In this document: piece after piece, positions 2,155 through 38,608 of the stretch
Layout of the letters: every line of letters begins with the position of its first letter
Numbering within the stretch: position 1 is the stretch's first letter
NCBI RefSeq assembly: GCF_902779965.1
Contig: NZ_CACZDK010000032.1
Coordinates: forward strand, 1 to 40,817
Source: Fibrobacter succinogenes
Lineage (GTDB): Bacteria; Fibrobacterota; Fibrobacteria; Fibrobacterales; Fibrobacteraceae
DNA: 40,817 nucleotides
Direction: 5' to 3'
Made by a program: the position numbers and the translations under genes
The notes under the pieces: generated by a model
The model's database searches: none
Seen by the model: only the letters and a program-made list of their open reading frames with translations
What the model was told of the DNA's origin: nothing

Positions 2155-2943
2155 TTAAAGGGCGCTGTCGAGCACCATCATCAGCGTAAAGCCCACGGCA
2201 AAAAGAAGGGTGCCGGCATCAAAGTGATCGCCTTCGCTCACTTCGGGGAGCATTTCTTCGACCACGACATAAATCATGGCCCCAGCCGCAAGCGAAAGCA
2301 GGTACGGCATAAAAGGCGAAAGAGCCTCTGCGGCAAGCAATGTAATCAAAGCCCCCACCGGTTCAACGGCTCCGGAAAGCGCTCCCAATGCGAATGCTTT
2401 TTTGCGGGAAGCTCCTTCCGCACGGAGCGGAAGCGAAACCACGGCCCCTTCGGGGAAGTTCTGAATAGCAATGCCTATCGCGAGCGCAAATGCGCCCGAA
2501 AGCGTGATGGCGACATTCCCCGAAAGCCAGCCTGCAAATACAATGCCTACAGCCATGCCTTCGGGCAAGTTATGCAAGGTCACCGCAAGCGTAAGCATCG
2601 TTGTGCGCTTGAGTTTTGCCTTGGGGCCTTCAGGAGTAGAACTCCCTAAATGCAAATGCGGTGTAATTTTGTCTAGAATGAACAGGAAAATGATGCCCGC
2701 CCAGAAGCCAACTGTCGCCGGGATAAAAGCAAGCTTCCCCATGGATTCGCTCGCCTCAATGGCTGGCAAAAGCAAGCTCCACACAGAAGCAGCCACCATG
2801 ACGCCCGCCGCAAACGAGAGTAGGCCGCGTTTGAGGTTTATGCCCATCTGCTTGCGCATAAAGAAAACGCAAGCCGCCCCTAACACCGTCCCCAAAAACG
2901 GGATGGCAAGACCTTGGGCAATTTGTAAGACGGGTTCGTTCAT
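2155..2943 (-). CDS. ZIP-family divalent metal transporter (GufA/ZupT-like)
   Basis: The 262-residue inner-membrane protein has about eight hydrophobic segments and both signature helices of ZIP transporters: HNLPEGMAVG in helix IV and QNFPEG in helix V, whose His, Asn and Glu form the binuclear metal site. A variable loop containing HLHLGSS (about residues 95-102) sits between helices III and IV, as in the family. ZIP proteins import Zn2+, Fe2+ or Mn2+ down their gradient. The gene is divergent from the hydrolase gene at 3054 across 110 bases. The AraC-type site in that gap is oriented toward the hydrolase, so joint control is uncertain. Length is typical for the GufA branch. Metal specificity cannot be read from the sequence. 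Confidence 0.88.
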   Translation of the reverse strand: MNEPVLQIAQGLAIPFLGTVLGAACVFFMRKQMGINLKRGLLSFAAGVMVAASVWSLLLPAIEASESMGKLAFIPATVGFWAGIIFLFILDKITPHLHLGSSTPEGPKAKLKRTTMLTLAVTLHNLPEGMAVGIVFAGWLSGNVAITLSGAFALAIGIAIQNFPEGAVVSLPLRAEGASRKKAFALGALSGAVEPVGALITLLAAEALSPFMPYLLSLAAGAMIYVVVEEMLPEVSEGDHFDAGTLLFAVGFTLMMVLDSAL

Positions 2944-2987: not shown

Positions 2988-3021
2988 TTCTCGTGGATTT
3001 TTGAACGCCTGATTGGAGTAG
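2988..3021 (-). promoter_or_regulatory. Candidate AraC-regulon site D (direct repeat, 20-bp spacing)
   Basis: On the minus strand CTACTCCAATCAGG is followed, exactly 20 bp after the first TCC, by TCCACGAG. The CTACTCC end (3015-3021) faces the hydrolase gene and ends 32 bases before its ATG, the same geometry as the sites at 17964, 32595 and 34027. Confidence 0.6.
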
Positions 3022-3053
3022 TTGGGGGTAATGCATTTTTTTATTGTATCAGC

Positions 3054-4244
3054 ATGATTAAAGCAAAAATAATCATTGCCGCGACTATGGTCGCACTTCT
3101 TTCTGCCACATCCGCTAATGCTTGCCTTGCTGCCTGCAAAGAAAAGAAACGTGATGAGGCCTACAGTAAACCCCTCACGACATCGGCTTTGCAGACCCTT
3201 GTTGATAATTCCCTGCCGCAAAAGTCGGTTGATCCGGAACTTGGTGCACCTTATACGGTTTACCCGATTGAGGTGAAACCCTACGACAAGGTTTTCCATT
3301 CGACGTTAATCGAATACCCCTTCGGGAGTTCGCCGCGCGCTGTGTCGCCGATTTCTAGCCCGCGTGGAATTATTTTGTATGTACACGGATACAACGATTA
3401 CTTTTTCCAAGAAGAATTGGCCGAAAAGTCCGATTCTGCCGGGTTCGCTTTCTTTGCGATAGACCTGCATTACAATGGCCGTTCGTACCGCGCTGGGGAG
3501 CCGCGTTCCGACATGCGGAGCGTCAAGGAATACTATGCCGAATTGGATGCCGCCGTGGCGCTCAGTAAAAAGATTGCTGAAAATTCCATTTCGAGCAATC
3601 TGCCGTTTGTCATTATCGCGCATTCCAATGGTGGCTTGATTACGCCGAATTACTTGAACGAACGCAATAGCGAAGATTTTGCGGCGTTTGTCTTGAACAG
3701 TCCCTTCCTCGACTACAAAAACAGCTGGTTTGTCCGTAATGTGGCATTCCCCGTTCTTTCGGACGTCGCGCTATTGATGCCCGATGCGCCGGCGCCAAAA
3801 CAGGAATCTCCCAAGTACAACACGTCTCTTTTGAAAACCGAAAGAGGCGAATGGGAATTCAACACGGAATTAAAGAGCGCCGAATGGCCGCAACAATACT
3901 TCGGTTTCCTTCGCGCGACCACAAGGGGAATCAAGCGGATTCATAACGGAATGCAAATCAAGTCTCCCATACTTATGATGCGTAGTGGCTGCACCGTCAA
4001 CAACGTCAAGTGGGAAGAAGACTACATGCGCTGCGACTGCTTGCTCGATGTGGATCTCCTAGAAAAATGGGCTCCCAAGCTAGGGCCTGATGTTACAACA
4101 GTGACTGTTGAAGACGGAATGCACGACGTATTCCTTTCCCGTAAGGACGTTCGCGATTTCGCTTACCGCACGATGTTCGAATTCCTTGACGATGCGGTGG
4201 CCCGTAAAAATGCGGTAGTCGCTTATAACTATATTGTTCCCTAG
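3054..4244 (+). CDS. Lipoprotein-type alpha/beta hydrolase (serine hydrolase, S33/lysophospholipase-like)
   Basis: The 396-residue product begins with a hydrophobic signal sequence; LAAC places a lipobox Cys at residue 28, though signal peptidase I cleavage after SANA is an alternative. The alpha/beta-hydrolase core shows the oxyanion-hole strand IILYVHGYND, then FAIDLHYNGRS, and the nucleophile elbow AHSNGG with Ser191 (the usual first Gly of GxSxG is replaced by Ala). The likely catalytic His is His357 in DGMHDVF. The acid residue is not certain. No Shine-Dalgarno sequence precedes ATG 3054, and a leaderless or near-leaderless message is possible. The AraC-type site at 2988-3021 links it to the iron locus, so a siderophore esterase role is my inference; a lipase or polysaccharide esterase is also possible. 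Confidence 0.75.
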   Translation: MIKAKIIIAATMVALLSATSANACLAACKEKKRDEAYSKPLTTSALQTLVDNSLPQKSVDPELGAPYTVYPIEVKPYDKVFHSTLIEYPFGSSPRAVSPISSPRGIILYVHGYNDYFFQEELAEKSDSAGFAFFAIDLHYNGRSYRAGEPRSDMRSVKEYYAELDAAVALSKKIAENSISSNLPFVIIAHSNGGLITPNYLNERNSEDFAAFVLNSPFLDYKNSWFVRNVAFPVLSDVALLMPDAPAPKQESPKYNTSLLKTERGEWEFNTELKSAEWPQQYFGFLRATTRGIKRIHNGMQIKSPILMMRSGCTVNNVKWEEDYMRCDCLLDVDLLEKWAPKLGPDVTTVTVEDGMHDVFLSRKDVRDFAYRTMFEFLDDAVARKNAVVAYNYIVP

Positions 4245-4255: not shown

Positions 4256-4361
4256 ATGAATGTATGGAACGTTTTCGCGCCGGTTTACGAATTCTCGATG
4301 CGCTCGCGGAAATCCGCCGCGTCTTAAAGGATGGCGGCTTGCTGATTGCGCCGTTTTTCAT
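4256..4361 (+). pseudogene. Remnant of a class I SAM-dependent methyltransferase gene
   Basis: ATG 4256 opens a short frame reading MNVWNVFAPVYEFSMRS, typical of the N-terminus of small methyltransferases (an A-P-x-Y-E start). The next frame from about 4295 reads LAEIRRVLKDGGLLIAP, the conserved segment after motif III of class I methyltransferases. The SAM-binding motif I and more than 60 residues between them are missing, and the 3' end stops where the ORF6N gene begins on the other strand. I read it as a host gene that lost its middle and its end, perhaps when the ORF6N genes arrived. It follows the hydrolase gene by 11 bases and may once have been its operon partner. Confidence 0.55.
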
Positions 4362-4922
4362 CTATCGCTTAACACGCTTTACGGAATGTTTTATCTTGCC
4401 TATGATAAAGTTCAGTTCCAGCGAGGATTCTGTTTCTGTTGTTTCTAAATCCGGCATAACGATGTTTGTGAGAATCTCTCCGAAATGCTGCATTTTCGAA
4501 TGCTTTTCCTCCTTGTCGCCTTCTTTATGCAACTCCACAAGTTCTCTCTTGAGTTCTCGAACAGCCGCAAAAGTCTCGATGATGGCGAAAGTTGTGTTAA
4601 TCGCCGTCTTGCTTTTTAAGATTGTCGCAAGCATATAGAGGCCTTTTTCTGTGAAAGCGTAGGGTAAAGATCTGCTTTTGGCCGAATAATTTGTGGACGA
4701 AATTTTCGTCCGCAAAATTTCAACTTCGTCCTTTGACAACTGGAACATATATGTCGAGGGAAACTTGTCAGGATTGTTCCTGACCGCCTCATTGATTCGC
4801 TTTGTCTCTACACCATATAACAAAGCGACATCGGCATCCAAAATGATTTTATGATTTCGAACGGATGTAATTCGGTCTGCCACATTGCGCATTAAAATCG
4901 AAAACGTGTTTTCGTTATTCAT
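4362..4922 (-). CDS. ORF6N-domain protein (short form)
   Basis: The 186-residue protein carries an ORF6N DNA-binding domain over about residues 10-105: IILDADVALLYGVETKRINEAVRNN, KFPSTYMFQLS and AFTEKGLYMLATILKS are family hallmarks (shown here in separate pieces). A charged helical tail follows (RELKRELVELHKEGDKEEKHS). ORF6N domains come from phage and large DNA viruses and are common in mobile regions; their bacterial role is not established. It lies 60 bases after the longer ORF6N gene on the same strand and shares its leader hairpin, so they are probably a duplicated pair. The 3' end abuts the methyltransferase remnant. Confidence 0.8.
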   Translation of the reverse strand: MNNENTFSILMRNVADRITSVRNHKIILDADVALLYGVETKRINEAVRNNPDKFPSTYMFQLSKDEVEILRTKISSTNYSAKSRSLPYAFTEKGLYMLATILKSKTAINTTFAIIETFAAVRELKRELVELHKEGDKEEKHSKMQHFGEILTNIVMPDLETTETESSLELNFIIGKIKHSVKRVKR

Positions 4923-14259: not shown

Positions 14260-14346
14260 TTATGATGGGAGCGCGTCCAAACGAATAGCCTGCGAAAGGA
14301 ACTCGCCGTCGGCCCCCATCATCATGCCGGGAGCGGCAATATTCAT
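14260..14346 (-). CDS. Possible 28-residue peptide coupled to the ABC transporter gene
   Basis: The ATG overlaps the stop of the ABC gene in the form TAATG, a layout that favours translational coupling, and GGAAG lies five bases upstream. The product begins MNIAAPGMMMGADGEF and ends LDALPS. It has no recognised family and might be a leader peptide, the truncated start of a lost gene or a chance frame. It ends 17 bases before the DMT gene. Confidence 0.3.
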   Translation of the reverse strand: MNIAAPGMMMGADGEFLSQAIRLDALPS

Positions 14347-16094
14347 TACAGCTTCCAGCTGACGGCTTCGCGGCGGGAATCGATGAATCGGGCGTAGATT
14401 CCGCCGTTCTTCACGAGTTCTTCGTGCTTGCCCTGTTCCACGATGCGGCCCTTGTCCAAGACGACAATCTGGTCGGCATGGCGCACGGTCTTTAAGCGGT
14501 GTGCGATCATGATGACCGTCTTTTCGCGGGTCAGTTCCTGAATGGCAAGCATCAAGTCGCGTTCGTTTTCAGGGTCCACGTTCGCTGTCGCTTCGTCCAG
14601 AATGATGACCGGAGAATCCTTCATGATGGCACGTGCAATCGAGATGCGCTGGCGTTCACCGCCGCTGAGGCTTGCGCCGCCTTCGCCGATGACCGTATTG
14701 TAACCGTCGGGGAGTTTTTCAATAAAGTCGTGGCAGCAGGCTTTCTTGGCGGCTTCTACGACTTGCTCGTGCGTGGCGCTCGGATTCCCGAACTTGATGT
14801 TGTTTTCAATCGTATCGCGGAACAGATACACATTCTGGAATACGAAACTGAAGTTCTTCATGAGGCTGTCCATGCTGTAATCTTGCACGCGGCGGCCTCC
14901 CAAAGTGACTGAGCCTGCATTTACATCCCAGAAGCGTGAAAGCAGGTGGCAAAGCGTTGTCTTTCCAGAACCGCTCGGGCCCACGATTGCCGTGGTCGTC
15001 TTTTCGGGAATGGTAAGCGTCACGTTGTCAATGATCTTGCGCTTGTCGTAGGCGAAATCGATACCGTCGGCCTTGATGTCGTGATTGGCAGGGACAATAT
15101 CTTCGCCGTCAATGTCCATGGTGGGCTTGTTCAAGATATCGTTTGCGCGGTTGACCGAGATGTCGACGGCACGGAGGAGCGCCGCGTAACTGCCGCCCAG
15201 TTCCAGGGCTGCAAAGAGCATGAAGGAGCACACCAGCATGACAGCGCAGTTGGCAAGTTCCATGGTGCCGTTCAGGTAGAAATGAATCGAGAACATCATG
15301 ATGGCAACGCCCGTGAGCTTGGCGACAAAAGTCTGCAAGTTTGAAAGCGGAACGCACTTGAGTTCCATGCTGATGTTTGCTGCTGTGCACTTGTCGATGA
15401 CTTCGTTCAGTTCCTTGGAGCGTTTGCCGGTCATGTTGTAGGCCTTGACTTCGGCGATTCCCTGGATGTATTCAAGAACCTTTTCGACTACCTTGCTGTC
15501 GGATTCCACTTTTTCGTGCGACACGGCACGGACGTTCATGCGCATGAGCGTGTTGATGAACTGGAAAATCGCAAAGCCGATGGTTGCGACAATCGCAATT
15601 CGCCAATCGAAGAAGGCGATCATCACGATGATGAGGACGGTGTCGAGAATGCCCTGCGTGACCATCATGACAACGCGTGTTGCCACATCGCCAAGCTGTT
15701 CCATGGTGTTGGTGGTGACGGAGGTGATGTAGCCGAGGCTGTTTTTGTTAAAGTAGCCCATGGGCAGGTAACGCAGGTGTTCGGCGATTTCGATGCGCTT
15801 GGAGGCGCAAGTGCGGTAACCGCCCTCGGTTTGCCACATGCTCATGACGCGCTTGGTAACGGTTGCGCCGATAAGGCTCGCCACCATGATCCCAAGCGAA
15901 AGCCAGACAATATCCATTGTGAACGGGGCGACGCCCTGTACGTGGCGAATGACGCCCTGCAGCATGACGGCCATGGCACCGATGCGGAGTGCCATGAAGA
16001 AGGAATTGAAGATTCCCACGATGATAGAGCCGTAGAACTTGTGGCGGTTTTCTGCATTGCAGAAATTGAAGAATTTAATGAGTGTATCGAACAT
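14346..16094 (-). CDS. ABC transporter, fused permease/ATPase, second half of pair 1 (YbtQ/IrtB-like)
   Basis: The 582-residue protein has a six-helix type IV (exporter-fold) membrane domain (about 15-310) and an ATPase domain: Walker A GPSGSGKTT (about 371), signature LSGGERQRISIARAI (about 475) and Walker B VIILDEATANVDPENE (about 495), with H-loop IAHRL. YbtPQ and IrtAB have this fold but work as importers or reducers of ferric siderophores, and the DPENE extension after Walker B is common in them. ATG 16094 follows the stop of the partner gene directly (TAAATG), with GGAGG eight bases upstream, so the two are co-translated as a heterodimer. Context (divergent receptor, AraC-type site) supports siderophore import. 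Export of a small molecule is the alternative. Confidence 0.87.
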   Translation of the reverse strand: MFDTLIKFFNFCNAENRHKFYGSIIVGIFNSFFMALRIGAMAVMLQGVIRHVQGVAPFTMDIVWLSLGIMVASLIGATVTKRVMSMWQTEGGYRTCASKRIEIAEHLRYLPMGYFNKNSLGYITSVTTNTMEQLGDVATRVVMMVTQGILDTVLIIVMIAFFDWRIAIVATIGFAIFQFINTLMRMNVRAVSHEKVESDSKVVEKVLEYIQGIAEVKAYNMTGKRSKELNEVIDKCTAANISMELKCVPLSNLQTFVAKLTGVAIMMFSIHFYLNGTMELANCAVMLVCSFMLFAALELGGSYAALLRAVDISVNRANDILNKPTMDIDGEDIVPANHDIKADGIDFAYDKRKIIDNVTLTIPEKTTTAIVGPSGSGKTTLCHLLSRFWDVNAGSVTLGGRRVQDYSMDSLMKNFSFVFQNVYLFRDTIENNIKFGNPSATHEQVVEAAKKACCHDFIEKLPDGYNTVIGEGGASLSGGERQRISIARAIMKDSPVIILDEATANVDPENERDLMLAIQELTREKTVIMIAHRLKTVRHADQIVVLDKGRIVEQGKHEELVKNGGIYARFIDSRREAVSWKL

Positions 16095-17909
16095 TTATGC
16101 ATCCTCCTCGGAATCCTTGGCACTGATGTGGGCCTGCCACATGGACTTGTAGAGACCGCCCTTTTCGAGCAGTTCCTGGTGCGTGCCGCAGCTGTCGATG
16201 TTGCCGTCCTTGATGACGTAGAGCTTGTCGGCGTCTTTGACGGTCGAAAGGCGGTGTGCGATGACGATGAGTGTTTTGCCTTGCACGAGTTTTGCCACGG
16301 ATTTCTGGATGATGGCTTCGTTTTCGGGGTCGGTGTAGGCGGTCGCCTCGTCCAAAATGACGATGGGGGCGTTTTTCATCATCGCACGGGCGATGGCGAT
16401 GCGCTGGCGCTCGCCACCGGAGAGGTGGGCGCCCGAGCCGCCGACAATCGTGTCGAAACTGTTTTCAAGACTCATGATAAATTCGTAGCAGCCGCTTTGG
16501 CGCGCCACCTCTTCGACTTCGGCATCGGATGCCGAAGGCCGCCCGAGCCGAATGTTCTCACGGACAGACATGTCGAACAGGAAGTTATCCTGTGAAACGT
16601 AGGCGATGCGGCGGTTGTATTCTTCGAGCGAAAGATCCCTGATGTTCACGCCGCCGATTTCGATATCGCCGCTGTCAACATCCCACAGCGAGGCGATAAG
16701 GCGTGCAATCGTCGATTTGCCCGAACCGCTCGGGCCCACGAATGCGGTAAAGCTCCCTTCGGGGAGAACCATATTGATGCCATGGAGAATTTCCTTGCTT
16801 TTTTCATTGCTAGGCCCTTCGGCAAGCTCAGGGACCTTGTCCTTGCCTGTGCTGAGCGAAGTCGAAGCATGGTAGCTGAACCGGACATTTTTCAACGTGA
16901 TTGAATTGTCGGCCGGATTGTGCAAGTCGACAATGGGGCGTTGCAGCTCCTTCATTTCGAGCACTGAGCCGACTTCGCCGAAAATGACGCCGGCCTTGCT
17001 GATGTCGTCGCTGTAACTCATGATGGTGAGGAGCGGCATCATGATACTCACCGAAACGATGATGACGGTGATAAAATCGACGGCCGTAATGGAACCGTTG
17101 TAATAGAAGTAACCGCCAAACGGTAACACCGTCAATAGCGTGGCAGGAGCGACCGTAATGGCAAGGGAATGCGGCCAAATGCAGCGGCGCATCCATTCAA
17201 CAAAACAGTCGCTCCCTTCTTTTGCGGCTACTACAAACTTGTCGTAAGAAGACTTTGACTTGCCAAACGCCTTGATAACTTCGATGCCGTTGATGTATTC
17301 AACCGCGGTGTCGTTCAACGCCTTCGTTTTCTGGATAGAATTGTCGAACCACTTTTGCGCTCCGGCAAACATGACGGCCATGGCGACCATACCGATCGGG
17401 AGCGTTCCAAGCGAGGCTAGTCCCATGCGCCAATCGATATGGAAAAGGTAGACGAACATGAGCACAGGGAGAATCAGGTTCGAGGTAAATTCCGGAACCA
17501 CGTGCGCAAGCGTCGTTTCCATGCTGTCGATGCGTTCTACCAGGATGTTCTTGAGCGCGCCCGAGGGCATGTCGAGAACAGAACCCAGCGGCACACGCGA
17601 TAGCTTGTCGCAAAGGTCCTTGCGGATGTTGCCGAGAACGTTAAACGTCGCTACGTGCGAAAGCGTCGTCGAAATGCTGTGGAACAGGACATTCCCGAAC
17701 CAGAATGCCGCAATAATCAGGCATTCTTTTAGATAGACGTCCCAATCGCGCACGCCCGAGAGCAGTTCGCGCACGATGTTTGCGATAATGATGTAAGGAG
17801 CGATTCCGCAAGCAACGCGCAAGAGCGCAAAGAAAATGCTTGCGATGTAGTATTTTTTCTTGTTTCTGGCAAACAGAAAAATCCAAGAGAGCAGAGATTT
17901 CTTTTTCAT
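16095..17909 (-). CDS. ABC transporter, fused permease/ATPase, first half of pair 1 (YbtP/IrtA-like)
   Basis: The 604-residue protein has six membrane helices (about 15-310) and an ATPase domain with Walker A GPSGSGKST (about 390), LSGGERQRIAIARAM (about 494) and Walker B IVILDEATAYTDPENE (about 513). The Y/F-x-DPENE form is typical of the YbtPQ/IrtAB group. I start at ATG 17909 (MKKKSLL), seven bases after GGAGG, rather than at the more upstream alternative at 17924. It lacks the N-terminal siderophore-interacting domain of mycobacterial IrtA. Oddly, an in-frame repeat (16814-16869) inserts about 20 residues (STSLSTGKDKVPELAEGPSN) right after the A-loop segment NVRFSY. The divergent AraC-type site at 17964-18001 lies 54 bases upstream. 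Confidence 0.88.
   Translation of the reverse strand: MKKKSLLSWIFLFARNKKKYYIASIFFALLRVACGIAPYIIIANIVRELLSGVRDWDVYLKECLIIAAFWFGNVLFHSISTTLSHVATFNVLGNIRKDLCDKLSRVPLGSVLDMPSGALKNILVERIDSMETTLAHVVPEFTSNLILPVLMFVYLFHIDWRMGLASLGTLPIGMVAMAVMFAGAQKWFDNSIQKTKALNDTAVEYINGIEVIKAFGKSKSSYDKFVVAAKEGSDCFVEWMRRCIWPHSLAITVAPATLLTVLPFGGYFYYNGSITAVDFITVIIVSVSIMMPLLTIMSYSDDISKAGVIFGEVGSVLEMKELQRPIVDLHNPADNSITLKNVRFSYHASTSLSTGKDKVPELAEGPSNEKSKEILHGINMVLPEGSFTAFVGPSGSGKSTIARLIASLWDVDSGDIEIGGVNIRDLSLEEYNRRIAYVSQDNFLFDMSVRENIRLGRPSASDAEVEEVARQSGCYEFIMSLENSFDTIVGGSGAHLSGGERQRIAIARAMMKNAPIVILDEATAYTDPENEAIIQKSVAKLVQGKTLIVIAHRLSTVKDADKLYVIKDGNIDSCGTHQELLEKGGLYKSMWQAHISAKDSEEDA
16814..16869. repeat. In-frame REP-like palindromic element inside the ABC transporter gene
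   Basis: The left arm CCCTTCGGCAAGCTCAGGG and the right arm GCTGAGCGAAGTCGAAGC are imperfect inverted matches (shared TTCGnC...CTCAG) of a palindrome dispersed in many genomes. The insert adds about 20 residues to the nucleotide-binding domain and keeps frame. The other ABC proteins in this window lack the insertion at this place. Confidence 0.65.
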
Positions 17910-17963
17910 AGAGTTTCCTCCCAAAAGGGCTGAATCAAATTTTGGAAAAAAACTTTTTCTGTT

Positions 17964-18001
17964 CTACTCCAAACGGATTTTCGCAAAACCAATTGGAGTA
18001 G
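17964..18001. promoter_or_regulatory. Candidate AraC-regulon site A (works in both directions)
   Basis: CTACTCCAA (17964-17972) and TTGGAGTAG (17993-18001) are perfect inverted repeats. On the plus strand TCCAAACGGA is followed after 20 bp by ACCAATTGGA; on the minus strand TCCAATTGG is followed after 20 bp by TCCGTTTGG. Thus each of the divergent genes (ABC pair 1 and receptor 1) sees a CTACTCC-first site with its CTACTCC end facing the gene, 54 and 34 bases from the start codons. Confidence 0.7.
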
Positions 18002-18035
18002 ATATTTTAGGTCCCATTTTCTCAATTTGGGGCCG

Positions 18036-20300
18036 ATGAAACGAATTTTTGTATACAAACTGATAACGATTATCCTCATTTTGATTGCCATCACGGCGGT
18101 TGCAACGCGGGCACAGGAATCGACGGGGGCAAACCCCGACGAAGATGTCACGAATTTTGACGAATTTTTTGCCGAAGAATCCTCCAATCCGTCCTCTGAC
18201 ACAGACAAAAATGCGAATGATTCGCAAATTGGGGTAACCGTCCTTGACGAAATGGGCATCGAAGGCGAAGGAATCAACGAAGCCGCTCCGATCGACAAGA
18301 AAACGAAAGCCGAATCGGTCAAGGTTATGGATGCCACGGAAATGCAGGGCTCCAGCACCACCATCGCAGACGCCACAAACCGCTCTTCGGGCGTAAAAAT
18401 CCGTCAGTCGGGTGGCATGGGCAGCGAAAGCAAGATCAACATCCGCGGCATGGAAGGCAAAAACGTAAAAGTCCTTGTCGACGGCGTCCCTGTTGATAAC
18501 GGCAACGGAAACTTCTCCGTCAACGACATTCCTATCGACAAGATTGACCGCATCGAGATTTACAAAAGCTACGTCCCCGAACGCTTCGCCACCGACGGCA
18601 TGGGCGGTGTAATCAACATCGTGACACATGACCTGCCCAAGAGTTCGGTTACGGGTTCCTACAGCTTCGGAAGTTTCAATACGCATAAGGCCTCGCTTGA
18701 CGCAAAGTACGTATGGGTAACCGATTCGCTCAAGAGCCGCGCTATCGCCACCGGAATTTCGGCCTATTACAACTACTCCGACAACGATTATGAATTCACC
18801 ACGCCCTACATGGATACGACCGTAACGCGTGAACACGACCGTTACTACAGCTATAATGTGCTACCGTATGTCTCTTTCGAGCGTTTCTTTTTTGACAAGT
18901 TGACATTAGGCGTAATCTACAATGCGATGGACAAAGAAATAGAGTCAAACGCGCACCGCATCGAAGAGGCGACCGCAAATGCGCAATCGTACGGCGTAAA
19001 CCTTTCCCTTGAAAAAGCAAACCTGTTTATCAAGGGACTATCGATGGGTCTTTCGCTAAGCTACGCCTACGGCAAAGAGGCGGTTATTGATACGAGCCAT
19101 ACGTATTATTACGGCTGGGACAAAGAGAATGTACGCGAAAGTAAAAAGGCTTACGGCGAAATTTCTCTTGGCGGAGCGTCGCACATAGAACGCGAAAACC
19201 AGACTTTTATCGTTCCGTGGAACTTTGATTACGCCTTCACCCAGAACCACATTCTCACCTGGAGCGGCCTGTACCGCTACGAATCGCAAGACCCGACGGA
19301 CAAACGTATGGCTAAAGGCAAGACTCTCAACAACGCAGGATTCCCGGGCCATAGCCATTCGGTAGTATCGGGTCTTTCGCTTGAAAATAATTTCTGGAAC
19401 GAACGCATCCAGAACGTAGCAGGAGTCAAAGGGTATTATTACGTCATCGAAGCCGAGGATGACGGCGAAAACAGAATCCAGCAGTTGACCGATGATTATG
19501 CCGACAACAAGGATTATGGTTACAGCGATAACCTGCGCTTAAAATTGATAGACCAATTGGCCGTCATTGATCAGTTTGCCGTGAAAGGCGGGTATCAGCA
19601 CAGCCTACGGTTCCCGACCCGCGAAGAAATTTTTGGTGACGGATTGTACGTGTTGTGCGCCCCGGACCTGAAGCCCGAAAAGTCGGACAACTTTACGGCA
19701 GGCGCCGAACTCGACCTACGACAGATTCCACTGCTGTTAAAACTGCATTTGGAATTCAACTGGTTCTATATGCTCATGGATGACCGCATTTACTGGAATA
19801 ACTTCGTCTCGATTCCGCGACCGTATTACAACAGCGTTGGCACCAAGACGACCGGTTTTGAAATTGATGCCGCAGTCGATGTCAACGAATACATCTCGCT
19901 CACCTACAACATGACCAAGCAAGATGCCGAAAGCCGCGAGGCAGATATGGCGTTTGGAATCGCGAAGGGCCTGACCGTACCGAACATCCCCACATTCTAC
20001 ATGAACTTCGGTGCAGAATTTCACCTAGGCGACTTGCTTTTCCGCGATGACTTCTTCAAACTTTACTGGCTTGCCAACTACACCGATGAATATTACTACT
20101 CCTGGAAAGTCTCCAAGAAACAGGACCGTACCATTCCAAGCTCATTCTCGCAAGACATAGGAGTCGAATACTCGATTCTTGCAAACAAGCTTTCATGGAA
20201 TTTCGAAGTGCGCAACTTTATGGATGAACTCGTCTACGACAAGTATGGCGAATCCAAGCCAGGCCGCGCCTTTGCGACAAAAGTCAAGTTTACACTATAA
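18036..20300 (+). CDS. TonB-dependent outer-membrane receptor 1 (siderophore type)
   Basis: The 754-residue receptor has a signal sequence ending ATRAQ (residue 27), an acidic spacer, a plug domain (about 85-205; SGVKIRQSGGMG, INIRGMEGKNVKVLVDGVP, PERFATDGMGGVINIVTH) and a 22-strand-type barrel ending FATKVKFTL. No carboxypeptidase-like N-terminal domain is present, so it resembles siderophore receptors more than SusC-type carbohydrate receptors. It is a clear paralogue of the receptor at 26611-28839. I start at ATG 18036; TTG 18027 is in frame but less likely. No strong Shine-Dalgarno sequence is seen. The lipoprotein gene follows after 15 bases. Site A lies just upstream. Confidence 0.9.
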   Translation: MKRIFVYKLITIILILIAITAVATRAQESTGANPDEDVTNFDEFFAEESSNPSSDTDKNANDSQIGVTVLDEMGIEGEGINEAAPIDKKTKAESVKVMDATEMQGSSTTIADATNRSSGVKIRQSGGMGSESKINIRGMEGKNVKVLVDGVPVDNGNGNFSVNDIPIDKIDRIEIYKSYVPERFATDGMGGVINIVTHDLPKSSVTGSYSFGSFNTHKASLDAKYVWVTDSLKSRAIATGISAYYNYSDNDYEFTTPYMDTTVTREHDRYYSYNVLPYVSFERFFFDKLTLGVIYNAMDKEIESNAHRIEEATANAQSYGVNLSLEKANLFIKGLSMGLSLSYAYGKEAVIDTSHTYYYGWDKENVRESKKAYGEISLGGASHIERENQTFIVPWNFDYAFTQNHILTWSGLYRYESQDPTDKRMAKGKTLNNAGFPGHSHSVVSGLSLENNFWNERIQNVAGVKGYYYVIEAEDDGENRIQQLTDDYADNKDYGYSDNLRLKLIDQLAVIDQFAVKGGYQHSLRFPTREEIFGDGLYVLCAPDLKPEKSDNFTAGAELDLRQIPLLLKLHLEFNWFYMLMDDRIYWNNFVSIPRPYYNSVGTKTTGFEIDAAVDVNEYISLTYNMTKQDAESREADMAFGIAKGLTVPNIPTFYMNFGAEFHLGDLLFRDDFFKLYWLANYTDEYYYSWKVSKKQDRTIPSSFSQDIGVEYSILANKLSWNFEVRNFMDELVYDKYGESKPGRAFATKVKFTL

Positions 20301-20315: not shown

Positions 20316-21542
20316 ATGAACCTCTTCAAGAATAAACTAACCATTGCAGCAATCGCATCTACAATGATGCTCGCTGCCTGCGGCGACGATTCCAGCTCCA
20401 GTGCTTCTGGCGATGAACCGTCCAACGAAACTGGCGACCTCTACCTTCTTTCCTTCATGATGGAAACTTCGCAGTTCGTGGGTCTTGGATCTCTTTCCGA
20501 CAATCAGTCCAAACTCGTCCAAGATTTTATCGAGGCTCCGAATACGGGTGCAGTCGCCTACTTTGACGGTTCGGTCTACACCCTTGTTTCTGACGGCGGA
20601 AACAGCACGCTTTCCCGCTACGAAGTCAAGAATGGCCATATGGCCGACAAGGCCGCTGCCAAGGCCAAGTTTAAGGGAACGAACGCCATCATGATGAAGT
20701 TCGTCGACGAAAACAAGATGTACGTTGAACAGGCCCTGGGCGACGCCATCACGGCTCTTGACCCCAAGACTCTCAAGACCACGGCCACCATCGACCTTTC
20801 CAGCTACATCGACGAAGAAAGCGGCGCCCTGACATCTGTTCCGGGCTCTGCCGTGATTCGCGACGACAAGATGTTCGTGTCGTTGAACCAGTTTGTCGAT
20901 TTCGATAACGCGATTGCCGGTCCTCGCGCCAGTGTGGCCATCATCGACGTAAAGAGCGACAAGGTCGACAAGGTCATTTACAGCGACAAGGTTGCAGCCG
21001 TCGGCGGCATGGACGACATGAACAACACCGCCTCTTTTGTCGACGAAAAGGGTGACATCTACTTCTACTCCAACGCTTCCTACAGCTTTATCGAAGGTTA
21101 CCAGGAAGGCTGGGTCCGCATCAAGAAGGGTAAAACCGAATTCGACAAGGACTGGGTGTTCCATATGCACGAAGCCGCCTATAACGGCAAGAAGAGCAAC
21201 AATAACAGCCTGATGGTCGGCGGCACCTATATCGGCAAGGGCAAGTTCTTTGGCTTCTTCGGCAATTTCTCCAATCCGAACAACTGGTACGATTACGAAT
21301 GGCAATACGTGGTTGTAGATATCTATAACAAGACCGTCGAGAAGGTCAAGGACCTCTCTCCGACCATTTCGTGGTTCGCCCCCTCTATCCATCTTGATGC
21401 CGACGGCAAGAGTGTCCTCGTGGGCCATGCCGACAAGAAGGGCGGAGCCATTTACCGCTACGATATTGATAGCGGCAAGGTCACCAAGGAAATGAACGTG
21501 ACCACCGGAAACGCATACTACATCGTTCCCATCGCCGATTAA
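20316..21542 (+). CDS. Surface lipoprotein, DUF4374/XusB-like siderophore-capture protein 1
   Basis: The 408-residue product has a lipoprotein signal with lipobox LAAC (Cys22) and a DDSSSSAS tether typical of Fibrobacter lipoproteins. The rest reads as repeated beta-sheet blades (for example SRYEVKNGHM, TALDPKTLKTTATIDLSSY, VAIIDVKSDKV, IYRYDIDSGKV), as expected for a seven-bladed propeller of the DUF4374 family. In Bacteroides thetaiotaomicron XusB, of this family, captures enterobactin for the receptor XusA. The gene follows receptor 1 by 15 bases with AAGGA six bases before ATG, the same receptor-plus-lipoprotein layout. A paralogue lies at 32743-33948. Family assignment is from memory of motifs and layout, not a search. 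Confidence 0.72.
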   Translation: MNLFKNKLTIAAIASTMMLAACGDDSSSSASGDEPSNETGDLYLLSFMMETSQFVGLGSLSDNQSKLVQDFIEAPNTGAVAYFDGSVYTLVSDGGNSTLSRYEVKNGHMADKAAAKAKFKGTNAIMMKFVDENKMYVEQALGDAITALDPKTLKTTATIDLSSYIDEESGALTSVPGSAVIRDDKMFVSLNQFVDFDNAIAGPRASVAIIDVKSDKVDKVIYSDKVAAVGGMDDMNNTASFVDEKGDIYFYSNASYSFIEGYQEGWVRIKKGKTEFDKDWVFHMHEAAYNGKKSNNNSLMVGGTYIGKGKFFGFFGNFSNPNNWYDYEWQYVVVDIYNKTVEKVKDLSPTISWFAPSIHLDADGKSVLVGHADKKGGAIYRYDIDSGKVTKEMNVTTGNAYYIVPIAD

Positions 21543-32594: not shown

Positions 32595-32628
32595 CTACTC
32601 CGAATAGGCCTGTTCAAATCCAATCGGA
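32595..32628 (+). promoter_or_regulatory. Candidate AraC-regulon site C
   Basis: CTACTCCGAATAGG (from 32595) is followed by TCCAATCGGA at 32619, exactly 20 bp after the first TCC at 32599. The CTACTCC end faces the minus-strand operon, 65 bases from its ATG. Confidence 0.65.
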
Positions 32629-32742: not shown

Positions 32743-33948
32743 TTACTTGAGCGGAACAATCCACATCGGGATCGGCTTGAGGCTTGCAATTTTTTCAGCC
32801 TTGTCCTTCTTGGGATTGTAACGGTAATAGCCATTGCCGTCTTTTTCGGTAGCAACGGCGAACAGCACATTACCATCTTCTTCGACATACTTGCCATAGC
32901 TAGCATAAGCAGAGGTGTAAGGAACGGGCAGAGCCTCCATTTTCTTCTTGGCAAGGTCAATCTTAACAGCCTTGCAAGTGGCATTATAGTAGTCCTCTTG
33001 CGAGTCCCAGCTCTTATTCAAGTCGTTCATTACGTTAAGGTAAGCATAAACCGTTGAACCATCTGCCTTGGCAAACGGAGAGAGGTACTTGAACACACCC
33101 TTCTTCGTCACATCCTTGATGGAGACCTCATCCGAAACGTTCCACACATAATCCTTGTCGAATTCCTTTTCGCCAACCTTGATGCGAAGGAAGCCATCCT
33201 TCTGGCCCGGCGCATAGCTCCAGGAAGCATTGCTATACACATAGATATAGCCATCGGCTTCGACAAAAGCTTCATTCTGGCTATCGTCAAGCGATCCGAC
33301 CGCAGCGACGCGGTCATCCTTGGCGACGCCGAGTACCTTGTCCTTCTTCACGTCGATAATGGCGACCTGAGCGGTATAACCGGTCTCGTAATCGCTCACG
33401 TTCTGCAAGAGGCCCACATAAAGGAGTCCGTCAACAATGATACCGGTTCCCGGGCTCACAGCGAAGGCGTCTTTATCCTTATACTTGGAAAGATTGATAG
33501 AGCCGGTCACCTTCATTTTCTTGGGGTTGAAGATAACCAGCGAATCCGACATACCAGCCAAATAGGCCTTCTCTTCGTTCACGAAGAAAATGTGGTTCGT
33601 CCAAGCGCCCGGCAGGGCAATTTCACCCTGCTTTGCACCAATCTTATTGTTTTCGTCAAGTGCATAGCGGGTTATCAAACCGACATCCAAATCAGTAATA
33701 AACAACGATCTGTTGTAATAGATTACGCCCGAACGGGTGCCAACTTCAATAAAGTCATCCCCAATATCTTCGGTATGCTCAAGCGACATGGTGCCGATGA
33801 ATATACTGTTACCCGCAGCAATGGCTGTCGCAAATTCGCGCTTATAGTTGTCATCGGAAGCGCTGGAGGAGGAATCGTCACTGCAAGCAGCGAGCAACCC
33901 CACAGATGCCAGGGCCACAGCAAAGGTCTTCACTATTTTTGATTTCAT
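32743..33948 (-). CDS. Surface lipoprotein, DUF4374/XusB-like siderophore-capture protein 2
   Basis: The 401-residue product has a lipobox LAAC (Cys22) and the tether SDDSSSSASDD. The body shows propeller-type blades (YYNRSLFITDLDVG, LVIFNPKKMKVTGSINLS, QVAIIDVKKDKVLGV, YRYNPKKDKAEKI). It shares with lipoprotein 1 the patterns DRVAAVGSLDD, IYVYSNASWSY and GFLRIKVGEKEFDKDYVW, so they are paralogues. It is a single-gene unit: site B lies 79 bases upstream and a strong terminator follows. Its likely partner is receptor 2, encoded in the next operon on the same strand. Ligand capture at the cell surface is inferred from the family and from the pairing. Confidence 0.72.
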   Translation of the reverse strand: MKSKIVKTFAVALASVGLLAACSDDSSSSASDDNYKREFATAIAAGNSIFIGTMSLEHTEDIGDDFIEVGTRSGVIYYNRSLFITDLDVGLITRYALDENNKIGAKQGEIALPGAWTNHIFFVNEEKAYLAGMSDSLVIFNPKKMKVTGSINLSKYKDKDAFAVSPGTGIIVDGLLYVGLLQNVSDYETGYTAQVAIIDVKKDKVLGVAKDDRVAAVGSLDDSQNEAFVEADGYIYVYSNASWSYAPGQKDGFLRIKVGEKEFDKDYVWNVSDEVSIKDVTKKGVFKYLSPFAKADGSTVYAYLNVMNDLNKSWDSQEDYYNATCKAVKIDLAKKKMEALPVPYTSAYASYGKYVEEDGNVLFAVATEKDGNGYYRYNPKKDKAEKIASLKPIPMWIVPLK

Positions 33949-34026: not shown

Positions 34027-34060
34027 CTACTCCAAATAGCGGCTAAAAAATCCAAAAGGG
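34027..34060 (+). promoter_or_regulatory. Candidate AraC-regulon site B
   Basis: CTACTCCAAATAGCGG (from 34027) is followed by TCCAAAAGGG at 34051, 20 bp after the first TCC at 34031. The CTACTCC end faces lipoprotein gene 2. A weaker pair of TCC half-sites, also 20 bp apart, lies at 34088 and 34108 in the same gap and may concern the araC-type gene. Confidence 0.65.
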
Positions 34061-34258: not shown

Positions 34259-35092
34259 ATGCTCAATCTCGCCGGAATTGAATGGCTCACAAACATTGAC
34301 CGCAACTTCGCCGTCCCGGCCAAAACCCCATCCTTCATCCTGGAATTCTGCCGTCAGGGCCGCATTGAATGGTCTGGCGGGAACCTGCCGTGCAACCACC
34401 TGGAAACAGGAGAAATGCTCGTATACGACGCCTGGACCCTCGGCGGGCTGAACCGTTCCGCCAACTACCGCGGTGACATCATCCTTTTCTACGATGAAGC
34501 CATCAACGAAATACGGCAATCCTTTGCCGGTTTCGACATCGACATCGCATCCTTCCAGGAAAAGTTCAGCATTCAGAACAAGCCCTTCATTGTGCACACC
34601 CGCGAAGAAATCCAGTACGTTTTTTCCAAGTTTGAGCACATAAAGGACGCCTTCCGCCAAGAATATAGCAGGCTCGGTCTCCTTGAGATTCTGATTACGC
34701 TCAAGAACATGGACGCCCACCGCGAATCGGTTTGTCGCGACTGTAACATATCGATGCTCCAGGTCGAAAAGGTTTACGGCATCCGCACGTTCATCTGTGA
34801 CAACATCGATTCCCACTACACCATCGAAGAACTCGCCGACAAGTTCGACATGCCGCCTACCGCAATGAAGGTCTGCTTCAAGAATGTTTTCGGGCTCCCC
34901 GTATTCACCTACGCGCGTCGCGAACGTATGAAACATGCCGCAAAGCAGCTCCGCGAATGCGACCGCGGGATTCTTGAAATTGCAGGAACCGTCGGCTACA
35001 ACAACGGAAGCAAATTCGCCCACGCCTTCCAGGATGTCATGGGCATGACGCCGAAGGAATACCGCAAAAAATTTAGGCAAAACGCAGCATAA
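34259..35092 (+). CDS. AraC-family transcriptional regulator of the iron locus
   Basis: The 277-residue protein has an N-terminal ligand-sensing half (residues 1-165) and a C-terminal double helix-turn-helix: HYTIEELADKFDMPPTAMK (about 195-213), then RERMKHAAKQLRE and ILEIAGTVGYNNGSKFAHAF, ending in MGMTPKEYRKKF, the typical AraC signature. It belongs with the AraC regulators placed beside siderophore ABC genes, such as YbtA, which respond to the ferric siderophore. GAGAGGA lies eight bases before ATG. Its promoter is bracketed by DtxR-like boxes. I propose that it binds the 20-bp-spaced sites A to D and activates uptake genes when its ligand is present. The ABC gene follows after five bases. 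Confidence 0.9.
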   Translation: MLNLAGIEWLTNIDRNFAVPAKTPSFILEFCRQGRIEWSGGNLPCNHLETGEMLVYDAWTLGGLNRSANYRGDIILFYDEAINEIRQSFAGFDIDIASFQEKFSIQNKPFIVHTREEIQYVFSKFEHIKDAFRQEYSRLGLLEILITLKNMDAHRESVCRDCNISMLQVEKVYGIRTFICDNIDSHYTIEELADKFDMPPTAMKVCFKNVFGLPVFTYARRERMKHAAKQLRECDRGILEIAGTVGYNNGSKFAHAFQDVMGMTPKEYRKKFRQNAA

Positions 35093-35097: not shown

Positions 35098-36882
35098 ATG
35101 AAAAAAACATTCTCTAAGCTCTACGCATACATGGGATCGCGTCGTCCGCTGTTCCCGCTTGCTTTGATTCTCTCGGCACTGAGCGCCATCGCGGGACTCG
35201 TGCCGTTTTTACTGATGTGGCTGATTGTCCGCGAAATCCTTACAGGCGGCGACATGACGAACATCAAGATTTTCGATTACTCTATCGGCGCAGTACTCGC
35301 CTCGGTTGCAAGTGTATTACTTTACTTTGCAGCCCTCGCCTGTTCGCACCTAGTAGCATTCAGGCTTGAAGGCGACCTGCGTCGATTCGCCATGAAAAAA
35401 CTGATGAGCGCGCCGCTCGGATTTTTCGACAAGAACCCGACAGGCAAACTCCGCAAGATTATCGACGACAACGCCGCAATTACGCACACCTTCGTCGCGC
35501 ACGAGATGCCCGATATTTCGGGCACCATCCTGATTCCGATTGTGGCACTCGTGATGATGTTCGTTTTTGATTGGCGGCTTGGTCTTGCCACATTGGTGCC
35601 GATTGCCTACGCCATCTTTATTCTCGGGACCTTAGGCAAAAAAGGAACCAAGTTCATGGAACGCTACATGCAGTCGCTCGAAGAAATGAACAGCGAAGCC
35701 GTCGAGTATGTGCGTGGTATCCCTGTCGTCAAGGTTTTCCAGCAGACCATTTATTCGTTCAAGAATTTCTACAAGACCATTGAAACTTACCACCAGATGG
35801 TAACCGCCTATTCTGCTAGTTGGAAAGTTCCCTACTGCATTTACACCACGCTCGTAAACGGATTCGTCCTGTTCCTTGTGCCAGTAGCAATCCTCATTAT
35901 TGGGCATGGCGACGACGTGAAGCTCACCATTGTGAACATGATGATTTACGTACTAGTGACGCCGCTATTCACGCAATGCGTAATGCGCAGTATGTACCTG
36001 AGCAACGCGACGAACCAGGCAGGCATTGCGGTTGACCGCATCAATGATATCGCGCGCACCAAGGATTTAGAGGTTTGCGCAAATCAGGTCCCGATGCAAA
36101 ATTTTGATGTAGAATTCCGGAACGTGAGTTTCACTTATCCCGGCACCGACAAGCAGGTACTGAGCGACATTTCGCTCTCGGTACCGGTGGGCCACACCGT
36201 TGCACTTGTCGGGCCATCGGGCGGTGGCAAGAGCACGATTGCAAAGCTTCTACCGAGATTCTTCGATGTCGATTGCGGCGAAATTACCATTGGCAGAATT
36301 TCGGTAAAGCAGATTGATCCGAAGGAACTGATGAAGAATATTTCGTTCGTGTTCCAGAATACGCGACTTTTCAAGATGAGCATCTTGGACAACGTGCGTT
36401 ACGGCATGCCCGATGCAACTCTTGAACAGGTAAACGAAGCTCTTGACCTTGCGCAGTGCCGAGAAATCATCAACAAGTTGCCTGGCGGCATCGATACGGT
36501 TATCGGAAGCAAGGGCACTTACCTTTCGGGCGGCGAGCAGCAGCGCGTCGTACTTGCGCGCGCCATCTTGAAGAACGCACCCATCGTTGTGCTCGACGAG
36601 GCAACCGCATTCGCCGACCCCGAAAACGAACGACTGATTCAGGAAGCCTTGCACAAGCTTGCCGCAGGCAAGACGGTGCTTATGATTGCGCACAGGCTTA
36701 CCAGCGTGGTGAATGCCGACCAGATTATCGTGGTCGAAGAAGGCGAAATCGCCGAACGCGGTACGCACGCAGAATTGCTTGAAAAGAACGGCGTTTACGC
36801 CAAGATGTGGGCCGAATACCAGCAGTCCGTCACATGGACCCTCGATAATTCCAAGGAAAATGAAGGAGGCGAAAATGTATAA
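35098..36882 (+). CDS. ABC transporter, fused permease/ATPase, first half of pair 2 (YbtP/IrtA-like)
   Basis: The 594-residue protein has six membrane helices (about 15-310) and an ATPase domain: Walker A GPSGGGKST (about 372), signature LSGGEQQRVVLARAI (about 475) and Walker B IVVLDEATAFADPENE (about 495). DEATAFADPENE is a hallmark of the YbtPQ/IrtAB siderophore-import branch of exporter-fold ABC proteins. The gene starts five bases after the AraC gene and ends with an 8-base overlap with the partner gene. It should form a heterodimer with the next product in the inner membrane and move ferric siderophore inward. Confidence 0.9.
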   Translation: MKKTFSKLYAYMGSRRPLFPLALILSALSAIAGLVPFLLMWLIVREILTGGDMTNIKIFDYSIGAVLASVASVLLYFAALACSHLVAFRLEGDLRRFAMKKLMSAPLGFFDKNPTGKLRKIIDDNAAITHTFVAHEMPDISGTILIPIVALVMMFVFDWRLGLATLVPIAYAIFILGTLGKKGTKFMERYMQSLEEMNSEAVEYVRGIPVVKVFQQTIYSFKNFYKTIETYHQMVTAYSASWKVPYCIYTTLVNGFVLFLVPVAILIIGHGDDVKLTIVNMMIYVLVTPLFTQCVMRSMYLSNATNQAGIAVDRINDIARTKDLEVCANQVPMQNFDVEFRNVSFTYPGTDKQVLSDISLSVPVGHTVALVGPSGGGKSTIAKLLPRFFDVDCGEITIGRISVKQIDPKELMKNISFVFQNTRLFKMSILDNVRYGMPDATLEQVNEALDLAQCREIINKLPGGIDTVIGSKGTYLSGGEQQRVVLARAILKNAPIVVLDEATAFADPENERLIQEALHKLAAGKTVLMIAHRLTSVVNADQIIVVEEGEIAERGTHAELLEKNGVYAKMWAEYQQSVTWTLDNSKENEGGENV

Positions 36883-38608
36883 GTGGGTTCAGAATACTTT
36901 TGCTCTTTCGGAAGAAGGCTCGCACACATTCATCCGCGGAGTCGTGTGGACGTTCCTGCACTTCGTTTCGCTCATGTTCCCGATGATGTTGCTGTTCAAC
37001 TTCTTGATGGAATATATGGGCGTCGGCGATTTTGCAGGCAAGGCCCCTCACGGAATCTGGTTCTATCTCGGTTTTTCCGTCACCCTATTCATTGTGATGC
37101 TTGTAATTTATGCTTTTTCGTACACCGCCACCTACGACAGCGTTTATGACGAAAGCATGCGACGCCGCGTCTCGATTGCAGAAAGGCTCCGCAAGCTACC
37201 GCTTTCCTTCTTTGGCAAAAAGAACCTTTCGGATTTGACGTCGACTATCATGGACGACTGCAATGCGCTCGAAATGATTTTCTCGCATGCGGTGCCGGAA
37301 CTTTTCGCCGCCATCGGAAGCGTCACCATTATCGGCATCATGCTCTTCTGCTACAACTGGAAAATGTCCATCGCGCTTTTCTGGGTCGTACCCGCCGCAG
37401 CGCTTCTGATCGCTCTTTCCAAGAAAATTCAGGACCGCTGGTTTATCAATTCGTACAACATGCGCCGCGAAATTATCGAAGACATCCAGGAAGGTCTCGA
37501 AAACGTGCAGGAAATCCGTTCCTACTCGGGCGAAGCGGCCTACCTCAGGCATTTTGACAAGGACTGCATCCGCTACGAAAAATCGCAGATGGATTCCGAC
37601 ATCAAGGTCGGCATGTTCCTGAATTCGGCGCAGGGTATCCTCAAGATGGGTCTTGCCACGGTGCTAATTACGGGCGCACGCCTCTGGACCAAGGGCGAAA
37701 TCGACGTATTCACCTACCTGGTGTTCATCGTGTGCGCGGCGACCATCTACAATCCGATTTTCCTCGTATTCAACAACCTCGCCGAACTGTTCTTCGTGAA
37801 TGTTCGTCTGCGTCGTTTCCGCGAAATGGACCAGATGCCCATACAACATGGCGAAACAGAATTCACGCCTGCCAATTACGATATCGAATTCAAGGATGTC
37901 GATTTCAATTACAACGAAAACAAGCAGGTTCTGAAGAAAGTTTCGTTTACCGCAAAGCAGGGCGAAATTACCGCACTTGTAGGCCCGAGTGGCAGCGGAA
38001 AAACGACTGCGGCAAAACTTGCGGCACGCTTCTGGGACATCCAGGGCGGTTCCGTAACGCTCGGCGGCCAAGATATCAGTAAAATCGATCCTGAAACGCT
38101 CCTCAAGAACTTCTCCATCGTCTTCCAAGACGTGGTGCTGTTCAACACGAGCATCAAGGACAACATCCGCATCGGCAAGCGCGACGCCAGCGACGAAGAA
38201 ATCCTGAAGGTGGCAAAACTCGCTGGCTGCGACGAATTCGTGCAGAAAATGCCGCAGGGTTACGACACCGTTATCGGCGAAAACGGCGACACGCTCTCGG
38301 GCGGCGAACGCCAACGAATCTCGATTGCACGCGCCCTGTTGAAAGACGCGCCCATCATCCTGCTTGACGAAGCGACCGCAAGCCTCGACGTGGAAAACGA
38401 ATCCAAGATCCAGCGCGGCATTTCGCAGTTGGTGAAGGGCAAGACCGTCATCATCATCGCACACCGCATGCGCACTATCGCAAACGCCGACAAGGTCGTT
38501 GTGTTGCACGACGGTCACATCGCCGAAACAGGCTCCCCCGCCGAACTCAAGGCGAAAGGCGGCCTGTTCAGCAAGATGCTCGAATTGCAAGAGGTTTCCT
38601 CCCGATGA
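36875..38608 (+). CDS. ABC transporter, fused permease/ATPase, second half of pair 2 (YbtQ/IrtB-like)
   Basis: The 577-residue protein has six membrane helices and an ATPase domain with Walker A GPSGSGKTT (about 370), signature LSGGERQRISIARAL (about 473) and Walker B IILLDEATASLDVENE (about 494). I start at ATG 36875 (MYKWVQN), six bases after GGAGG and inside the end of the upstream gene; a longer in-frame start at 36713 would overlap the neighbour by 170 bases and is unlikely. Its stop overlaps the DUF3793 start as ATGA, so all four downstream products are translationally coupled or nearly so. Confidence 0.9.
   Translation: MYKWVQNTFALSEEGSHTFIRGVVWTFLHFVSLMFPMMLLFNFLMEYMGVGDFAGKAPHGIWFYLGFSVTLFIVMLVIYAFSYTATYDSVYDESMRRRVSIAERLRKLPLSFFGKKNLSDLTSTIMDDCNALEMIFSHAVPELFAAIGSVTIIGIMLFCYNWKMSIALFWVVPAAALLIALSKKIQDRWFINSYNMRREIIEDIQEGLENVQEIRSYSGEAAYLRHFDKDCIRYEKSQMDSDIKVGMFLNSAQGILKMGLATVLITGARLWTKGEIDVFTYLVFIVCAATIYNPIFLVFNNLAELFFVNVRLRRFREMDQMPIQHGETEFTPANYDIEFKDVDFNYNENKQVLKKVSFTAKQGEITALVGPSGSGKTTAAKLAARFWDIQGGSVTLGGQDISKIDPETLLKNFSIVFQDVVLFNTSIKDNIRIGKRDASDEEILKVAKLAGCDEFVQKMPQGYDTVIGENGDTLSGGERQRISIARALLKDAPIILLDEATASLDVENESKIQRGISQLVKGKTVIIIAHRMRTIANADKVVVLHDGHIAETGSPAELKAKGGLFSKMLELQEVSSR

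Follow-up and report, generated by a model that had tools for sequence, protein, structure and literature searches.

What does an exported alpha/beta hydrolase contribute to a set of genes for iron acquisition? The question is raised by a gene in a 40,817-nucleotide stretch of Fibrobacter succinogenes DNA (contig NZ_CACZDK010000032.1 of assembly GCF_902779965.1), referred to here as the window. In the rumen, Fibrobacter ranks among the principal degraders of cellulose, and iron acquisition in this genus seems hardly described. No paper on siderophore use by Fibrobacter was found among the literature matches listed, and a search of titles and abstract openings found nothing on the hydrolase gene or its regulon. 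The initial annotation of the window had read the product as a lipoprotein hydrolase that might cleave ester siderophores such as enterobactin and release iron for FeoB or the adjacent ZIP protein. The features discussed are collected in Table 1.

Table 1. Positions of the hydrolase gene, regulon sites and neighbouring genes in the window.
Feature	Position	Strand	Remarks
ZIP metal transporter, divergent neighbour	2155..2943	-	PF02535
Site D, exact GGWTTT-N14-GGAGTAG	2995..3021	+	reads GGATTTTTGAACGCCTGATTGGAGTAG
Predicted -10 hexamer TATTGT	3042..3047	+	20 nt past site D, 6 nt before ATG
Exported alpha/beta hydrolase (Hydrolase_4, monoacylglycerol-lipase-like)	3054..4244	+	396 aa, ATG start
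SAM methyltransferase gene remnant	4259..4368	+	nearly full length beside the hydrolase in 20/27 loci
Paired ABC permease-ATPases	14346..17924	-	
Regulon site before ABC transporter pair	17964..17990	-	
Regulon site before TonB receptor 1	17975..18001	+	
TonB-dependent receptor 1	18027..20300	+	Plug; weakly MxcH-like
XusB-like beta-propeller lipoprotein	20316..21542	+	LAAC-GDDSSSS
Regulon site before LolA-like gene	32595..32621	-	DUF1302/TonB/ExbB/ExbD genes next
Second propeller lipoprotein	32743..33948	-	31% identity to the first
Regulon site before propeller lipoprotein 2	34027..34053	-	
AraC-family regulator	34259..35092	+	presumed activator of the regulon sites
Second ABC permease-ATPase pair	35098..38608	+	

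An exported hydrolase related to monoacylglycerol lipases

The reading frame is open and intact, and in a Pfam scan the best model for its product was Hydrolase_4 (PF12146), at 57.9 bits against a cut-off of 27. Relatives of the hydrolase are present in 70 of the 80 genomes of the genus. The gene falls in a clade of 27 hydrolase genes from 25 genomes (approximately 72–100% identity), the remaining matches lying at 37–66%; among named records, relatives at 80–96% identity come from Fibrobacter sp. and F. succinogenes metagenome genomes. As a control we used 37 fetched copies of the sister clade, of which the genus survey found more. Ser191 and His357, on which the initial annotation had based its prediction of hydrolase activity, were invariant in all 64 aligned Fibrobacter relatives, as were Asp328, Cys313 and Cys327, and together with the Pfam match they bear that prediction out. 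Asp328, which the annotation had not named, is likely to be the third catalytic residue. Ser191, Asp328 and His357 follow one another in the alpha/beta-hydrolase order in all 64 aligned sequences, an agreement at the level of sequence order.

An AlphaFold2 model of the hydrolase (45 sequences in the alignment, mean pLDDT 93.0) places the nucleophile elbow at strand E185-191 and helix H192-203. By sequence the nearest solved relatives are monoacylglycerol lipases. When the model was used as the query, Foldseek ranked M. tuberculosis monoglyceride lipase first (E 1.5e-13), and VIA-align matched it to the same enzyme (Rv0183) with a Z score of 28.0 and an rmsd of 2.8 Å over 274 residues. The hydrolase therefore shares the PF12146 family, the predicted fold and a serine nucleophile at the elbow with Rv0183 and human MGLL. 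However, identity to these lipases is 18%, and only the Fibrobacter protein has a signal and extension, a putative lipobox, the Cys313/Cys327 pair, a promoter of the AraC/iron type and a set of clade-specific cap residues.

Comparison with Fes and IroE, proposed in the initial annotation, went against the relationship it had in mind. Fes, IroE, PfeE and Cee are siderophore trilactone esterases of the PF00756 family; like the Fibrobacter protein they are serine alpha/beta hydrolases of an iron-uptake regulon, and it is by analogy with them that a role is proposed here. In contrast to these enzymes, the hydrolase gave no PF00756 match at E 0.01 in the Pfam scan, and its nearest solved folds are the monoacylglycerol lipases. 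Membership of the Fes/IroE group was rejected on the PF00756 test. A profile comparison with a PF00756 esterase from a Xus operon, in which only the 20-residue nucleophile elbow aligned (probability 14%), agrees with this. Fes and IroE entries were absent from the best 50 Foldseek or VIA-align matches listed for the hydrolase, a result that excludes nothing.

Export of the hydrolase is supported by its N-terminus, a signal plus extension of 50–60 residues, and by the invariant cysteine pair, and we consider it very probable that the protein is an exported serine hydrolase. The lipobox (LAAC28), taken in the initial annotation to place the enzyme in the periplasm or at the surface, fared less evenly. 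A loose pattern, [LVI][ASTVI][GAS]C, is present in 27/27 clade members and 0/37 sister-clade members, but only two of the 27 satisfy a strict PROSITE-like pattern and the hydrolase of the window is not one of them. The fit to the lipobox pattern is thus plausible but borderline, and the protein is probably lipid-anchored.

Membership of the AraC/iron regulon

The regulon site noted in the initial annotation directly before the hydrolase (site D) matches the motif GGWTTT-N14-GGAGTAG exactly. Five exact copies occur in the 4.09-Mb genome, every one in the window, and a control motif, the pattern read backwards, has none. With up to two mismatches allowed, the window contains 10 matches compared with a shuffle mean of 1.5. 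Across the whole genome, up to one mismatch yields 13 matches compared with 12 for the backwards control, and single-mismatch matches were therefore counted only where their context supported them. Sites with one mismatch precede a hydrolase copy of 80% identity in the same assembly (C14:1796) and a DUF3793-flavodoxin pair (C20:20218), and another has an MMPL exporter on one side and an ECF transporter on the other (C20:34682).

To follow the site across the genus, we built a matrix from 19 non-hydrolase sites and ran it upstream of the 27 clade genes and the 37 sister-clade copies; one clade locus at a contig end (L103) is excluded, giving 26 loci with upstream sequence. In all 26 a regulon site is found 32 nt before the ATG. 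The score is between 21.6 and 36.0 bits in 25 of them and 10.2 bits in L107, where the site is degenerate; for L044 and L100 a distance of 38 nt becomes 32 when an ATG 6 nt upstream is taken as the start. The 37 sister-clade loci have no site, the top same-strand score being 2.9, with late-starting homologies measured from the start of homology and with little upstream DNA at L016. A chance origin of site D was rejected in view of the confinement of exact copies to the window, the excess over shuffled sequence and the conservation in the clade. The reading of GGAGTAG as a plain Shine-Dalgarno sequence was also rejected, since it ends 32 nt before the hydrolase ATG and is accompanied by a distal GGATTT at fixed spacing. 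That reading had suggested itself since GGAGTAGAAGATG stands before two ORF6N genes, with starts at 4922 and 5966.

We regard it as practically certain that the hydrolase gene is a member of the regulon. The other members include the AraC regulator, two TonB receptors, ExbB/ExbD/TonB, FeoA/FeoB and two ABC permease-ATPase pairs, with an ECF transporter, a flavodoxin and a DUF3793 protein in addition. This gene set fits a function in iron acquisition, and we infer that it responds to iron.

A predicted leaderless promoter

The hydrolase promoters share a strict geometry. In 26/26 loci, representing 21 distinct sequences, they read site-N20-TAnnnT-N6-ATG, with the hexamer at +21 to +26. The hexamer occupies the same position in 14 of the 23 distinct contexts of other regulon sites, whereas at any other offset TAnnnT is found in at most 7/26 hydrolase loci and 2/23 other contexts. 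As the hydrolase ATG lies 6 nt after the hexamer, the expected transcription start coincides with, or directly adjoins, the start codon, and a leaderless transcript beginning at 3054 is predicted for the window. Because this arrangement recurs in every hydrolase promoter, an AraC-type activator should drive a leaderless hydrolase mRNA. In the regulon promoters of receptor and TonB genes the spacing from hexamer to ATG is approximately 8–9 nt; in some of them the predicted leader is just 1–3 nt.

Origin and divergence of the clade

In a tree of the 64 relatives, the 27 clade genes form one group on a long branch, the support for its node being 0.54, a value that midpoint rooting makes weakly informative. 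Between the window hydrolase and its relatives dN/dS was 0.06–0.12 in 13 usable pairs, a 14th pair being saturated. The copies used for this calculation contain no internal stops; in two genomes (G056 and G074) the hydrolase match contains a stop where its aligned part ends. At 44 positions at least 26 of the 27 clade genes share a residue that is rare in the others. The signal region, in which LAAC28 arose, accounts for ten of these; the other 34 lie mainly at 197-208 just behind the nucleophile, at 222-296 in the cap and at 314-338 near Asp328. To judge from their location, these changes fit a change of substrate. The best reading is that the clade hydrolase arose by duplication of a housekeeping lipase-like gene, of a family found across Fibrobacter and Bacteroidota, and then joined the regulon. 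A tblastn search with window proteins around hydrolase relatives elsewhere (70 loci from named records, L139-L208) found no iron loci; such matches as there were, to transporters, ZIP or regulators, were weak and scattered.

Gene neighbourhood of the hydrolase

The initial annotation put the hydrolase about 11 kb from the main iron locus. In the window approximately 10 kb separate it from the ABC genes, but in relatives it adjoins the iron locus. In one genome (G068, L092) only a scrap of methyltransferase gene lies between the hydrolase and an EamA gene, the iron ABC pair coming next; in two others (G079, L096; G052, L093) what lies between hydrolase and EamA is the methyltransferase gene plus a short stretch. 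Since it stands beside the iron locus in these relatives, the hydrolase is part of the iron island and has become separated from the rest of it. The gap in the window is filled by the two ORF6N genes and a methylase/SNF2/MzaB-like/HNH block. This block (6660-13079) holds a C5 methylase, a 271-aa protein, an SNF2 helicase with a ZorD/DpdE-like part, an MzaB-like HATPase and an HNH protein; it is a defence-type island between the hydrolase and the iron locus.

Of the two transporters that the initial annotation expected to receive the released iron, the ZIP protein is genuine but is replaced in some loci, as discussed below, and the FeoB (1-453) is partial, a C-terminal piece at the window edge whose Gate match reaches 17.5 bits against a cut-off of 29.6. 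Porin-like proteins of similar sequence adjoin FeoB pieces in the window (665-2023) and in L031 (283-1404).

A predicted XusB-like partner in the iron locus

The open reading frame of TonB receptor 1 ends 15 nt before that of the first propeller lipoprotein. When this lipoprotein was searched by sequence against the PDB to E 10, the single match was XusB (E 2.4e-4). A structural model built from three sequences (pLDDT 73.4) gave a consistent picture in Foldseek, in which ranks 1–6 were B. fragilis XusB chains (E 1.8e-16 to 3.5e-13), followed by the vitamin B12 lipoproteins BtuG (E 6.4e-12). No match to DUF4374 (PF14298) was found in the Fibrobacter propeller at E 1, and for this reason we describe the predicted partner as XusB-like without assigning it to the family. 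The catecholate receptor MxcH is a weak match for both TonB receptors (321 bits, where the cut-off is 925), so the ligand may also be a catecholate.

According to the published account (PMC13142918), structures 9HQE and 9HQK are B. fragilis XusB, and this hookless protein is described there as binding ferrichrome, with no substantial binding of ferric enterobactin. With such a protein as the best match of the XusB-like partner, enterobactin and salmochelin, named as substrates or as assay compounds in the initial annotation, become weaker candidates. The Xus system of Bacteroides resembles the Fibrobacter locus in having a TonB receptor followed by a propeller lipoprotein and, in some operons, an esterase; in P. 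distasonis this is the periplasmic esterase BDI_3403 (PMC13142918). The Fibrobacter locus differs in that it gives no DUF4374 match, the window proteins scanned with Pfam include neither a PepSY nor a ferric-reductase partner at the inner membrane, and its hydrolase belongs to another family. When we searched 11 genomes for esterases near DUF4374 genes, two had DUF4374, and a Prevotellaceae genome contained the operon TonB receptor-DUF4374-PF00756 esterase-ferric reductase. This operon and the reported BDI_3403 show that Xus operons can carry an esterase. The match of the Prevotellaceae enzyme to the enterochelin esterase model is weak (39.1 bits against a cut-off of 222). The window's own genome has one PF00756 match, at the cut-off. 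The first of the two propeller lipoproteins is XusB-like by prediction, and this points to iron piracy in Fibrobacterota.

Co-occurrence across 80 Fibrobacter genomes

The clade hydrolase is present in 24 of the 38 genomes with an AraC regulator of type I or II, compared with one of the 42 without (Fisher p 1.8e-9, phylogeny ignored); this one hydrolase genome without AraC (G056) is 71% complete. An XusB-like gene with at least 50% identity is present in 20/25 hydrolase genomes and 5/55 others (7 with two partial ones), and both results are inflated by shared ancestry. The remaining five hydrolase genomes lack an XusB-like gene, and two of them (G014 and G070) are near-complete. Since 14 of the 38 regulon genomes are without it, the clade hydrolase is an accessory part of the regulon.

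Two genomes have two clade hydrolases each: G048 and G000, the assembly of the window. We first viewed the copy on contig C14 of G000 as a paralogue from the same cell as the window (contig C32). Doubt arose because both AraC types occur together in G000 and in no other of the 80 genomes; the assembly could be a mixed bin, or one genome could hold two systems.

A possible role in the use of foreign iron carriers

An iron-linked role of the hydrolase is well supported, and the enzyme probably helps the cell to use iron carriers made by other microbes. Our preferred reading, to which we give a little less than an even chance, is that an exported serine hydrolase of the monoacylglycerol lipase type, its gene presumably responsive to iron, was recruited to take the place of a PF00756 esterase in xenosiderophore use. 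In this scheme a duplicated hydrolase copy would have been placed under the control of an iron-acquisition island's AraC-type activator. When iron is limiting, this activator may bind GGWTTT-N14-GGAGTAG and stimulate the promoter, whose -10 box lies exactly 20 nt past the site, so that the mRNA would begin with the ATG. The hydrolase could then work beside the XusA/XusB-like receptor pair, either on the cell surface or in the periplasm, and cut an ester or amide bond of the imported carrier, which would loosen its grip on the iron or yield a reusable ligand. In some Bacteroidota Xus operons this function probably falls to PF00756 esterases, whose place the hydrolase would fill.

That the hydrolase acts on an iron carrier at all is a tentative proposal, somewhat short of evens in our estimation. 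Against it, none of the solved or annotated siderophore esterases is a near relative, and family and fold favour lipid esters. Ferrichrome, the ligand of the XusB match, is a cyclic peptide hydroxamate without a lactone ring, which also counts against this reading. The siderophore-esterase proposal of the initial annotation stands in its iron regulon membership, hydrolase chemistry and export but not in its kinship with Fes and IroE; by family, fold and partner, the enterobactin and Fes/IroE readings are not supported.

The main rival, which we think unlikely but take seriously, is an iron-regulated lipase, acting on monoacylglycerols or lysophospholipids, by which membrane lipid would be remodelled or recycled, with the neighbouring methyltransferase acting on headgroups. 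The kinship with monoacylglycerol lipases in sequence and predicted fold speaks for it, as does the best PDB match of the methyltransferase, the phosphatidylethanolamine N-methyltransferase 8ys9 (E 1.4e-13). However, the UbiE/MenG and BioC models lie closer to the methyltransferase than the PmtA model does, and its gene is cut short in 7/27 loci, that of the window included, in which the hydrolase is intact. Given this and the dN/dS of 0.06–0.12, the hydrolase has been kept without the methyltransferase. Nearly the same gap, at about residues 18-87, is seen in the methyltransferases of L043, L100 and L102, and in L107 the gene lies on the far side of ZIP. The lipid reading is further opposed by the changes at cap and pocket positions, which are confined to the regulon clade, and by the regulon neighbours, most of which serve iron import.

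It is improbable that the enzyme is instead an esterase for plant or microbial phenolic esters of the feruloyl or chlorogenate type, whose catechol products would chelate iron so that fibre digestion feeds uptake. Fibrobacter lives on the plant cell wall, and feruloyl and chlorogenic acid esterases (Est1E and those of L. buchneri and L. helveticus) are among the VIA-align matches of the hydrolase, at Z scores of approximately 20.6–21.4; these are nevertheless about 7 below those of the lipases, and the Pfam scan found no carbohydrate-binding domain in the hydrolase. Finally, it is very improbable that site D serves the ZIP gene, or both genes, with the hydrolase as a passenger: ZIP is the divergent neighbour in the window and many relatives, but an ECF operon takes its place in 5/27 clade loci, the site keeps its position and orientation where an ECF operon or nothing recognised replaces ZIP (L089-L092, L094-L097), and the -10 box is directed at the hydrolase.

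Returning to recruitment for xenosiderophore use, its widest form, a Xus-like iron-piracy island of Fibrobacterota in which a duplicated lipoprotein of the monoacylglycerol lipase type, cleaving siderophores as PF00756 esterases do elsewhere and expressed from a leaderless AraC promoter, would represent a second, unrelated origin of siderophore esterases, appears unlikely on the present evidence. The regulon motif provides a direct handle on the iron-uptake genes of Fibrobacter, and the hydrolase, with its conserved promoter in 25 genomes, makes it testable whether siderophore-cleaving enzymes have come from more than one alpha/beta-hydrolase family.
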